In this document: positions 43,029 through 46,266 of the stretch, in pieces
Layout: every line of letters starts with the position of its first letter
Numbering within the stretch: the first letter of the stretch is position 1
From: an uncultured Coriobacteriaceae bacterium
Lineage (GTDB): Bacteria; Actinomycetota; Coriobacteriia; Coriobacteriales; Atopobiaceae
Assembly (NCBI GenBank): GCA_902786015.1
Contig: CADAAU010000008.1
Location: 1 to 64,000 of the forward strand
Direction: 5' to 3'
DNA: 64,000 nucleotides
Program-made: the position numbers and the translations under genes
Notes under the pieces: model-generated
Told to the model about the DNA's origin: nothing
The model's input: the letters and a program-made list of their open reading frames with translations, nothing else
The model's database searches: none

Positions 43029-44465
43029 CTATCGCCGGCGAGCAAGCACCACGATTGCAACGACCGCAGCCACAGCGATCACGGCAATTGGGACTATCAC
43101 GAACAACGGATTCAGCTTAGGGGTCTCAGTCTGCTCCGCATTCGACTCTTCCGCATCGCCGGCGGCCTCGCTTGACGATGCGTCGGATTCCTGAGTTGCG
43201 TGGGCCAAGGCCTGCTCGTACACGGTTGCGCCACATCGCTTGCAAACGCCTTCCACAAGCGCGCCTCCTCCCACATTGGAGGCCGTCCACGTTTCCACCT
43301 CATGTACGGTGGGAGTCCAGTTGCAGGGATACGTGTAGCCACAAAGCGTACAGGTGCGCTGCGTGTGCCCGCGGTCGGTGCATGTGCCTGCCACAACCTC
43401 CTCTGTCCACTGGGGGTTCTCGCAGGTATGCGGAACCAAGTCCACACCGTACTCAAAGCGCTCGTCAGGCGTAAAGTCGCTCGTGTTTCCTTCCCGCGTG
43501 GTAATGGCCTCCATGCTCATGTTCTCGCCTATCTCTGGCTCGCAATAGGCACGACGATCCTCGTTGTCCTCAAAGAAGGTGATGAACCCTTGCACGTGGT
43601 TGTTCGCGACAGTTCCCGCATGCTCTGCGCCTTCGGGATACACGATATACATGCCAATCATGCCACCATTGTGCACATAGCCATGGTCGGAGTCATATCC
43701 ACGAAGCGTGATGGAGTTTCCCACAAGGTCAGCATATCCTACTGCATACGCACCACCCAAGAACTGCTCGTCTTTTGCAGTAGCGTCAAGATCACGGCAC
43801 ACAAGCGTGACGTCAGCCACGTTGTTGAGGATGCGCCCGCGTCCGAATCCCGCAATACCGCCCACTCCGAAGCTCGCACCCGACGTGGCAAGCGATACCT
43901 CGCCGCCTACGGTGCATCCTTCGATAACCGAATTATCCATGTAGCCACAGACTCCACCTACGAAGGTGGGCTCGCTTGTATTCACGTTGACGGACAGCCC
44001 AAGGAACACGACGTTTCGTACGACAGCGTTCTCCAAGGTGTCAAAGAAGCCGGAAAAAGCGGTAGTGTATTCCTTCATGTTGCCATCGTAGGTGGACCTA
44101 CGCGCCTGCCCTGCGCTTGTAATGTTGGCATTGAGAATGGCGTGTCCGTTTCCCTCGAGCGTGCCATGGAACTCGATAGGTTGCCAGACCGTACCCGCAA
44201 GGTCCACATCGCACATGAGTTCATAGCTTCCGCTTGGGTTGTTTGCCATTGCCAGAAGGCCGCTCGCATCGAAAATCGGAGTTGCTTCTTGAGCGGCGGC
44301 GGTTTGTTGTGTCATTCCTCCTGCAACATCTCCCTCTGGAGTGACCGTCTGACCCGCCGCGTTACCAGCTGCTTGCCCTTCGGTCGCATATGTCACATCC
44401 GCTACTGCCAGAGTCGCAATCAACACTGCAACGAACGCCACGATCAGATTTCGTGCCATCCTCAT
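43029..44465 (-). CDS. Membrane-anchored surface protein, beta-helix-like repeats
   Basis: 478 residues. The N-terminus is a signal peptide (NLIVAFVAVLIATLAVADVTYA). The body shows GLUG-like turns (FHGTLEGNGHAILNAN, FSGFFDTLENAVVRNVVFLGLSVN, FVGGVCGYMDNSVIEGCTVGGEV, GVGGIAGFGRGRILNNV), typical of right-handed beta-helix adhesins. A Cys-rich part with four CxxC-like pairs (CTLCGYTYPC, CKRCGATVY) and a Ser/Glu-rich stalk follow. The C-terminus is a membrane helix ending in ARRR, so it is held in the membrane rather than sortase-anchored. The start at 44465 has GGAGGAG 3 nt upstream. Function unknown. Confidence 0.8.
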   Translation of the reverse strand: MRMARNLIVAFVAVLIATLAVADVTYATEGQAAGNAAGQTVTPEGDVAGGMTQQTAAAQEATPIFDASGLLAMANNPSGSYELMCDVDLAGTVWQPIEFHGTLEGNGHAILNANITSAGQARRSTYDGNMKEYTTAFSGFFDTLENAVVRNVVFLGLSVNVNTSEPTFVGGVCGYMDNSVIEGCTVGGEVSLATSGASFGVGGIAGFGRGRILNNVADVTLVCRDLDATAKDEQFLGGAYAVGYADLVGNSITLRGYDSDHGYVHNGGMIGMYIVYPEGAEHAGTVANNHVQGFITFFEDNEDRRAYCEPEIGENMSMEAITTREGNTSDFTPDERFEYGVDLVPHTCENPQWTEEVVAGTCTDRGHTQRTCTLCGYTYPCNWTPTVHEVETWTASNVGGGALVEGVCKRCGATVYEQALAHATQESDASSSEAAGDAEESNAEQTETPKLNPLFVIVPIAVIAVAAVVAIVVLARRR

Positions 44466-44610
44466 GTTCTCCTCCTCCATCTGGGAACCCCATCGTTCCG
44501 ACTTTTTCCGTCCTCTATGAATTGCCGTATCTTTTCGCAATGTCACTCTACTACATGCAATCAGAATGCGTCAGCCTATATTCGAAAACCTGTTTTGTCG
44601 ATGCCAAACA

Positions 44611-44799
44611 TCCGCGTTTGCGGTGCAGTTTGCAACCGCTACGCAAAACCGAAGCGATAGCAGCCCATATACGTCCGTTCATGCGTAGCACTTCTCAACT
44701 ACCACGCAAAGTTGGAGTGATAGCACCTCGTAAACTTCCGCTTCTGCGTAGTACTTCTCAACTGCCACGCAGTAACGTAAGTATTCCCACGATCGTTCG
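44611..44799. repeat. Left array: three 63-bp palindromic repeat units
   Basis: Units start at 44611, 44674 and 44737, an exact 63-bp period. Each opens with TCCG, then 4 variable bases, TGCG, a ~17-20-nt loop region, CGCA, 4 variable bases and a CGGA-type closing motif (CGAA, TGGA and GTAA here, so degenerate). The unit therefore folds as a stem with a 4x4 internal loop. The rest of 44466-44610 holds nothing I can identify. The array lies directly after the nuclease gene stop. Confidence 0.85.
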
Positions 44800-44807
44800 C
44801 TATCTGC

Positions 44808-45815
44808 TCAGTCCTTGTTGAGCGGATTGTCTGTACGCGCGACATCAGGAACCGCATAGCCAGACGGCACGCCAAACACATCGAGCAGATATCTGAAACG
44901 TGAAACGCGTGTAACATCACGATATCCAAATCGTAGAATCTTGACACCATTAATGCTAATCCGCGACTCCCGGAGCCGCTCGTCGGCTAGAACGTCCACC
45001 GAATCTCGACCATGTGTCATCTCTGGATTCGTATACTTCTCTCGGCCGTCCATTTCGCCGTAAATCGTGCCGCTCGATAGATACCAACAAAAGTCTACGT
45101 AATATGAAGCGCCATAATCCACCATATTTGGCACCTCCACCTGCAGCGTCGGTAACATATAGCCTTGTTCGATCATCGCCGCACGCGCTAGCGACTCCCC
45201 ACCACTCTCGCTTAGGTTATTTGCAAAAGACATAATGCTACTCGCACGCCCATGGTTATGTGCGCTACGATGAAATGAGTCGAACGCTTCGATAAAATGC
45301 CCTATGTCTTTACCCGACACGCGCAGGGTAGAATCGGCAATGGGTAGAGACTGTCTGAAGGAAAGTCGCCGCAGGCAGTCGAAACACGTTCGCTCCAATG
45401 ACGTTACGCGAACACCATCAACAACTTCTGTATCAAGACACGCGATTTGGTGTCGGCTTACATAGCGGCTGCTTCTTGAGTGCGCATGCGGAGAAGTGAC
45501 TATATGGACGGCATTCAACAACGGATAAGACACCCATAGTCCATGCACAATCGCGGCGGAAACATCGGCAAATATCCAATCGGGATGTTTAGAAGCAAGC
45601 GATCGAACAATATAGAGCTCCTGCTGATATCGATTGATAGTAGACCACAAATTGGGCAGGGTGTAGAGTTGTGGAAATGGTGACATCACGCTTCCGGCAC
45701 GAAGCGCCTCACGCAATCGATGCGCATCGCTTTGCGAGGCTGTCACTGCGCACATTCGCTGCAAAAAGCATTCTTCTAGTCTTTCAGTCAAATCGCGTCG
45801 TACGCCTCTGGCCAT
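44808..45815 (-). CDS. AbiEi-like / DUF559 (Vsr-type nuclease fold) protein
   Basis: 335 residues from the ATG at 45815 (AAAGGGG 6 nt upstream). The N-terminal half resembles the AbiEi-type regions seen in actinobacterial DUF559 proteins (VDGVRVTSLERTCFDCLRRLSF...IADSTLRVS). The C-terminal half has the Vsr/PD-(D/E)XK pattern: Glu in ESGGESLARAAMIEQGY, Asp in SYYVDFCWY, and GEMDGREKY. This suggests DNA nicking or cleavage, but no activity is known for these orphans. No methylase or toxin partner is adjacent. It is flanked on both sides by direct-orientation 63-bp repeat arrays, suggesting that it travels as a cassette. Possible alternatives are an antitoxin or a defence nuclease. Confidence 0.7.
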   Translation of the reverse strand: MARGVRRDLTERLEECFLQRMCAVTASQSDAHRLREALRAGSVMSPFPQLYTLPNLWSTINRYQQELYIVRSLASKHPDWIFADVSAAIVHGLWVSYPLLNAVHIVTSPHAHSRSSRYVSRHQIACLDTEVVDGVRVTSLERTCFDCLRRLSFRQSLPIADSTLRVSGKDIGHFIEAFDSFHRSAHNHGRASSIMSFANNLSESGGESLARAAMIEQGYMLPTLQVEVPNMVDYGASYYVDFCWYLSSGTIYGEMDGREKYTNPEMTHGRDSVDVLADERLRESRISINGVKILRFGYRDVTRVSRFRYLLDVFGVPSGYAVPDVARTDNPLNKD

Positions 45816-46049
45816 TGTCCACCCCTTTCGCTTTGGACCCATCCGTAGAATCGATGTGCGCATGATACACGACGAGATTATTTCAATTTCCCCACTGGCA
45901 CACAGCAATTGAGCGGTATAAAAATAAGGCCGACGCATAGCTTGTCATTTCTGCTGGTATTACAGCTGACCACGAATCAATAATTTGCCGTTTCAAAAAT
46001 GCACGCATCGTTTTGGGAACGCTGTGCCGCAAACGAGCATGGCCATGCG

Positions 46050-46219
46050 TCCGAATTTGCGGGGCAGTTTGCAACTGCCACGCAAAACCGGAGGGATAGC
46101 AATACGTATACGTCCGTTCATGCGTAGCACTTCTCAACTACCACGCAAAGTCGGAGGGATAGCGTCACGAAAACCTCCGAAGTTGCGGGGCCGTTCTTAA
46201 CCACCACGCAGATTCGGAG
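46050..46219. repeat. Right array: three 63-bp palindromic repeat units
   Basis: Units start at 46050, 46113 and 46176, with the same 63-bp period and orientation as the left array 1439 bp away. All three close with an intact CGGA. Unit 1 has a perfect inner hairpin GGCAGTT-TGC-AACTGCC; the middle unit is almost identical to the middle unit of the left array. Bases 45816-46049, between the gene and the array, hold its upstream region and nothing else I recognise. Confidence 0.88.
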
Positions 46220-46227
46220 GCATGGAC

Positions 46228-46266
46228 AAAAAAGGCCGCTCGCGTTGAACTGCTACGCGAACGGCC
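46228..46266 (-). terminator. Intrinsic terminator of leuS
   Basis: Minus strand stem GGCCG-t-TCGCGT with ACGCGA-g-CGGCC, 9-nt loop, followed by TTTTTT. It lies 28 nt after the leuS stop. Confidence 0.9.

Follow-up and report, generated by a model that had tools for sequence, protein, structure and literature searches.

Several described systems share elements with the locus analysed here. In REPtrons, the gene of a TnpA-REP/RAYT enzyme, a HuH/Y1 transposase (PF01797), is bracketed by palindromes of a REP/BIME family whose other members are scattered over intergenic sites; every enzyme is paired with a repeat family of its own, in which the copies beside the gene resemble each other most, and the boxes of BIMEs lie in alternating orientation. 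The co-evolution of TnpA-REP and REP has been described (PMC8266576), and in a survey of REPs the CGTC REPs, one of two large super-families, were apparently without a dedicated transposase (PMC3733652). TIRtrons consist of RAYT-like genes situated between long inverted repeats (PMC3733652), which are near-identical long palindromes, some of them with dispersed copies. With respect to the protein, AbiEi, the antitoxin of the AbiE type IV toxin-antitoxin systems, whose toxin AbiEii is a DUF1814 nucleotidyltransferase, and Rv2827c autoregulate by binding to 23-bp inverted repeats that occur as pairs in their own promoters (PMC7319586), and I-Bth0305I is a Vsr-like homing endonuclease.

The locus lies in a window of 64,000 nt, which is the whole stretch of DNA analysed (positions 1 to 64,000 of contig CADAAU010000008.1, from an uncultured Coriobacteriaceae bacterium). 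The nuclease gene has as neighbours leuS and the gene for a surface-like protein, followed by rimP and nusA-like genes, and the features of the locus are:

43029-44546: gene between rimP and the cassette, for a surface-like protein of 505 aa that has a membrane anchor at its C-terminus
44601-44663, 44664-44726 and 44727-44789, minus strand: left array, made up of three repeat units of 63 bp, on the 3′ side of the nuclease gene; 59.0-63.9 bits with the covariance model
44619-44645, 44682-44708 and 44745-44771, no strand assigned: core dyads TGCG...CGCA of the left units
44808-45815, minus strand: nuclease gene, 335 aa from M42, within a 376-aa ORF (44808-45938)
44856-45221, minus strand: PD-(D/E)XK nuclease domain, residues 199-320, with predicted active site E207, D241, E254-x-D256 and K260
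45222-45815, minus strand: AbiEi-like part, residues 1-198, with a winged-helix DNA-binding domain and the AbiEi C-terminal domain
46040-46102, 46103-46165 and 46166-46228, minus strand: right array, likewise of three 63-bp repeat units, separating leuS from the nuclease gene; 59.5-74.1 bits
46058-46084, 46121-46147 and 46184-46210, no strand assigned: core dyads TGCG...CGCA of the right units

The nuclease probably starts at M42 of the longest ORF (position 45815, minus strand), where its homologues begin. The AlphaFold2 model of the window protein, built with 38 homologues, has a mean pLDDT of 90.6 and a pTM of 0.88. Foldseek gave no match for this model below E 0.001, and the structural assignment rests on a second look with VIA-align. 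In this comparison, model residues 4-199 aligned to AbiEi from S. agalactiae (6y8q, Z 10.3, 178 residues, rmsd 6.5) and the AbiEi part also to Rv2827c from M. tuberculosis (1zel, Z 7.1), while residues 204-317 aligned to the catalytic domain of I-Bth0305I (3r3p, Z 10.7, 94 residues, rmsd 2.5) and the nuclease part also to TnsA (1t0f, Z 6.6). The homologue alignments (A2, A4) show no variation at E207 (in the motif GGES), D241, E254, D256 and K260, and the model shows the order of secondary-structure elements of PD-(D/E)XK enzymes together with their invariant acidic and lysine residues. The earlier note on this DNA had called the gene DUF559/Vsr-like; the second half of the name agrees with the predicted fold, but not the first, because the window protein had no match in Pfam up to E = 1, DUF559 included, and DUF559 had none up to 0.1 among 26 homologues. 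NCBIfam did not match the window protein either, and the AbiEi models of PADLOC match weakly, in up to 18 of the 26 homologues. The predicted fold and the conserved active site thus point to a putative nuclease in which a whole AbiEi fold is fused to a Vsr/I-Bth0305I-like PD-(D/E)XK domain.

This architecture sets the protein apart from both of its closest structural relatives. Compared with AbiEi antitoxins, it carries a fused nuclease, its repeats lie on both sides of the gene and are also dispersed, and the flanking ORFs, judged by translation, include no recognisable AbiEii toxin or defence gene; a complete AbiE toxin-antitoxin pair was rejected for this reason. It differs from I-Bth0305I in having no link to an intron or a phage gene, in a site that apparently is not interrupted by the gene, and in its other DNA-binding part.

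The two arrays enclose exactly one gene and each contain three units, whose core dyads recur at exactly 63 bp (TRF reports 46050-46220 with period 63 for the right array). They align to each other without gaps over 170 nt, with 81% identity (44603-44772 and 46042-46211, offset 1439 bp; blastn E ~1e-41). Identity between corresponding left and right units is 79% for the first pair, 88% for the middle one and 61% for the third, the latter being the background level, no closer than between unrelated units. Each unit is a dyad of the form TCCG-4-TGCG ... CGCA-4-CGGA, with outer and inner blocks that pair in 14 to 20 of 20 units and 4x4 columns that are variable and pair at about chance level. The earlier description of the arrays, with their exact period, single enclosed gene, variable internal loop and almost identical middle units, was therefore borne out. 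The repeat had no match in Rfam, and in a covariation test the halves of its dyad covaried no more than shuffled columns. Helical phasing was considered and discarded as a general feature: 63 bp corresponds to six turns, with boxes every 31.5 bp, but the spacing in other families is 36-36.5, 35.5, 31 or 19.

Contrary to a picture of repeats confined to a cassette, the 63-bp units are not restricted to the nuclease gene, and occur at five further intergenic sites of the same 3.49-Mb genome (C1:162450, C2:76513, C9:3888, C10:255661 and C14:29589), with a 63-bp spacing at all four of these that contain several units. A covariance model built from 19 units was used to search 59 relatives, and identified the set from the own genome and few other high scores; weaker matches lie around nuclease homologues in several congeneric species. 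One relative, G003, contains many copies similar to the window repeat, spaced by 72 bp (e.g., C10:4-421 of that genome) and in many cases close to contig ends, and had no nuclease match. Its genome is a draft of 360 contigs, so that these are either orphan repeats or the gene was lost in assembly gaps. The earlier note had proposed that widespread repeats with no link to this gene family would speak against a functional pairing; the repeats are dispersed indeed, yet a link to the gene family does exist.

Bracketing of the nuclease by lineage-specific palindromes recurs throughout the family, which was found in 47 of 396 Actinomycetota genomes scanned. A first scan of relatives, window included, revealed left and right repeats at E<1e-4 in 18 of 30 nuclease loci. 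Among 80 homologous loci from Coriobacteriia and Bifidobacterium, the left and right 700-bp flanks share a repeat in 51, versus 2 of 252 other genes from the same loci; likewise, 50 of the 80 have a 40-nt stretch with at least 30/40 identities between the 500-bp flanks, versus none of 74 windows situated 3 kb away. Outside the class, left and right repeats were found in 16 of 20 distant homologues at E<0.01, in 11 of these at E<1e-6. In many genera the gene sits between two near-identical palindromes with a sequence private to the lineage, such as the 90-nt repeat of L032 (91% left/right identity, arms 97% complementary), the 56-nt perfect palindromes of L033, the 70-nt repeat of L035 (97%) and the 120-nt repeat of L034 (97.5%), with further examples in L044, L046 and L051. 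In L033, a tandem array with a 27-bp period (1153-1314) abuts the left palindrome of the cassette. Approximately 35-40% of the homologous loci, including those from G011 and G014 of the window's genus, have no detectable left/right repeat; the objection named in the earlier note, of related genomes that carry the gene without repeats, thus applies in part. Plasmids and phages hardly ever carry the gene, and no relatives were found in viral contigs.

The separation of repeat families is clearest in G027, a complete genome of 2,276,002 bp that was covered entirely and that contains three nuclease paralogues, each bracketed by its own family:

Class A: 70-nt palindrome, 97% left/right identity, 12 dispersed places
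Class B: 93-nt palindrome, 96% left/right identity, 8 dispersed places
Class C: array with an 83-bp period, 92% left/right identity, 48 dispersed places

Copies of classes A and B have sharp ends, and sites of class C are mostly doublets with a period of 83-84 bp. Within each family the greatest similarity is among the copies flanking the gene, which are 95-100% identical to the query copy, whereas dispersed copies are mostly 73-94% identical. There is no Y1_Tnp/RAYT gene in this genome. Two palindromes of class A, at 1259930 and 1261426, lie 1.5 kb apart and have a common 30-nt 3′ flank, and represent a local duplication, possibly with the intervening DNA included. Class A shows 16 compensatory changes versus 6.3 +/- 2.9 expected, and classes B and C show none. 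The idea that the repeats act as structured hairpins is consequently supported in one of the four families tested, but not in the other three.

Similar nucleases tend to have similar repeats: these were found in 24 of 32 nuclease pairs with at least 70% identity, in 17 of 118 with 55-70% and in 1 of 908 below 45%, largely because most close pairs share a locus by common descent. In the pair L118/L120, nucleases and repeats are similar and the outer flanks have no detectable homology. The pair L086/L094 occupies a common locus with ~90-100% DNA identity, and its nuclease domains are 94% identical, but the repeats are unrelated on both sides, which suggests a switch of both repeats. An accelerated change of the AbiEi part accompanying this putative switch was rejected, since the nuclease part is the better conserved of the two in six of the seven pairs compared.

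In the window's genus, none of the relatives with available sequence downstream of leuS has the cassette there. In five of them leuS is followed directly by rimP, indicating that the site in the window has gained two genes, those for the nuclease and for the surface-like protein. The leuS gene of G012 is the most similar in the genus to that of the window (94% identity), and this genome lacks both the nuclease gene and any repeat, although it retains an orthologue of the gene adjoining the array on C14; gene and repeats are therefore absent together. We found no empty cassette site holding a single repeat, and both flanking repeats are complete; the comparisons likewise yielded neither a target-site duplication nor a precise empty site of a dispersed copy. 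A related situation exists in Bifidobacterium felsineum (L128, 5054-7212), where a segment of ~1.9 kb carrying a gene for a 528-aa surface protein lies between two near-identical nuclease palindromes. The sister species L124 has a single palindrome before rpmA at this site, and L127 likewise a single one, an arrangement consistent with DNA having been gained or lost through recombination at the repeats.

Taken together, the bracketing, the dispersal, the recurrence across the family and the presence of one repeat family per paralogue are reminiscent of REPtrons and, as to the near-identical long palindromes, of TIRtrons. The system nonetheless cannot be classed as a REPtron, since the Y1/HuH enzyme that defines these is missing and an AbiEi fold with a PD-(D/E)XK nuclease takes its place, although it appears to work like one. 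It also differs in that no tagged GTAG motif was noted, in its units of ~60-90 bp with ~8-50 copies instead of hundreds, in its occurrence in Actinomycetota and, probably, in the use of dyads in double-stranded DNA; from TIRtrons it is separated by an unrelated enzyme superfamily. The genome of the window contains, at C10:55818-56150 (L284), a TIRtron-like element in which a Y1_Tnp (RAYT-like) gene is flanked by a different 64-nt palindrome with 94% left/right identity, and thus two non-homologous enzyme-palindrome pairs coexist in it.

On balance, we favour, with moderate confidence, a REPtron-like system of enzyme and repeats without homology to RAYT/REP. The interval would be a self-contained cassette, formed by a palindrome array, the gene for the AbiEi/Vsr-like nuclease and a second palindrome array. 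The arrays consist of inverted boxes in alternating orientation, and inverted repeats are a known binding target of AbiEi proteins (PMC7319586); the AbiEi part may then bind the dyads, as pairs of inverted boxes, in double-stranded DNA rather than as single-stranded hairpins, and the fused PD-(D/E)XK domain would cut or nick at the bound dyads. Repair of the breaks through gene conversion or recombination between repeat copies could homogenise the two flanking arrays, change the length of the arrays and seed new intergenic copies, and recombination between two copies could move or excise the enclosed DNA, including the nuclease gene. The comparison with REP elements and RAYT transposases made in the earlier note, with a nuclease of unrelated fold, is in this respect supported by the family-wide bracketing, the private families of paralogues and the predicted fold, the action of the enzyme on the repeats being the conjectural part.

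Some of these observations also agree with other explanations. The nuclease could be a homing parasite that cuts palindromes of other origin and copies its own gene into them by recombination, never creating repeats. The resemblance of its catalytic domain to that of a homing endonuclease (3r3p, Z 10.7) and the absence of the cassette from the leuS site of relatives agree with this proposal, and the cargo of B. felsineum, between two repeats where the sister species have one, could derive from insertion into a repeat as well as from recombination at it. However, each paralogue of G027 has a private repeat family, with gene-flanking copies that are the closest to each other, and no other spreading agent is seen in this genome (no Y1_Tnp); besides, the two flanking repeats are intact, so that a filled site would remain a target, and we regard this explanation as rather unlikely. 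Still less probable is that the repeats are immobile operators of AbiEi type, serving autoregulation and the control of other genes, with the nuclease domain serving another function. One array does lie upstream of the nuclease gene, inverted repeats are the sites of autoregulation by AbiEi and Rv2827c (PMC7319586), and the lack of compensatory changes in three of the four families tested is as expected of double-stranded DNA sites, but most loci have an equally good copy downstream of the gene, and the dispersed copies, whose number varies and whose sequence is not the same in sister lineages, often follow the 3′ end of a gene or separate two convergent genes.

Two further possibilities have the lowest probability. 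AbiEi is known from abortive infection and is the target of the PADLOC models that match the family, so the nuclease might attack foreign DNA, with the palindromes as self-markers, decoys or control elements similar to those of toxin-antitoxin systems; we consider such a defence system highly improbable, given the lack of a recognised AbiEii toxin or defence gene nearby and the near absence of the family from phages and plasmids, and it would leave bracketing and dispersal unexplained. As for a role in RNA, many copies are situated 3′ of genes, and class A of G027, with its excess of compensatory changes (16 versus 6.3 +/- 2.9), behaves as expected of terminators or mRNA-stabilising hairpins. 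Their location around the gene would then be due to chance, which is very difficult to maintain when the repeats on either side are near-identical and come from a single family private to the nuclease, and bracketing distinguishes this gene so sharply from others at the same loci (51/80 versus 2/252); the chance of this explanation being right is slight.

The REPtron-like system favoured here could be part of something broader, a second, independent replicator composed of enzyme and palindromes, in which AbiEi-Vsr nucleases across Actinomycetota would create, disperse and homogenise private palindromes by cutting dyads, with subsequent repair, and with an enzyme/repeat pair for each lineage; we advance this proposal tentatively, giving it somewhat less than an even chance. 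No description of a pairing of AbiEi nucleases with palindromes was found in the CC-licensed literature of PubMed Central, which points to a partnership so far undescribed in that literature. The spread of palindromic repeats in bacteria has until now been tied to RAYT transposases, and here a different enzyme, amenable to testing, is paired with palindromes in Actinomycetota. If the nuclease acts on the repeats, a class of repeats dispersed in the genomes of Bifidobacterium and Coriobacteriia would have its explanation, and many orthogonal pairs of nucleases and sites, with long palindromic sites, would become available, together with a natural setting in which to test how the specificity of DNA binding changes jointly with a dispersed family of sites.
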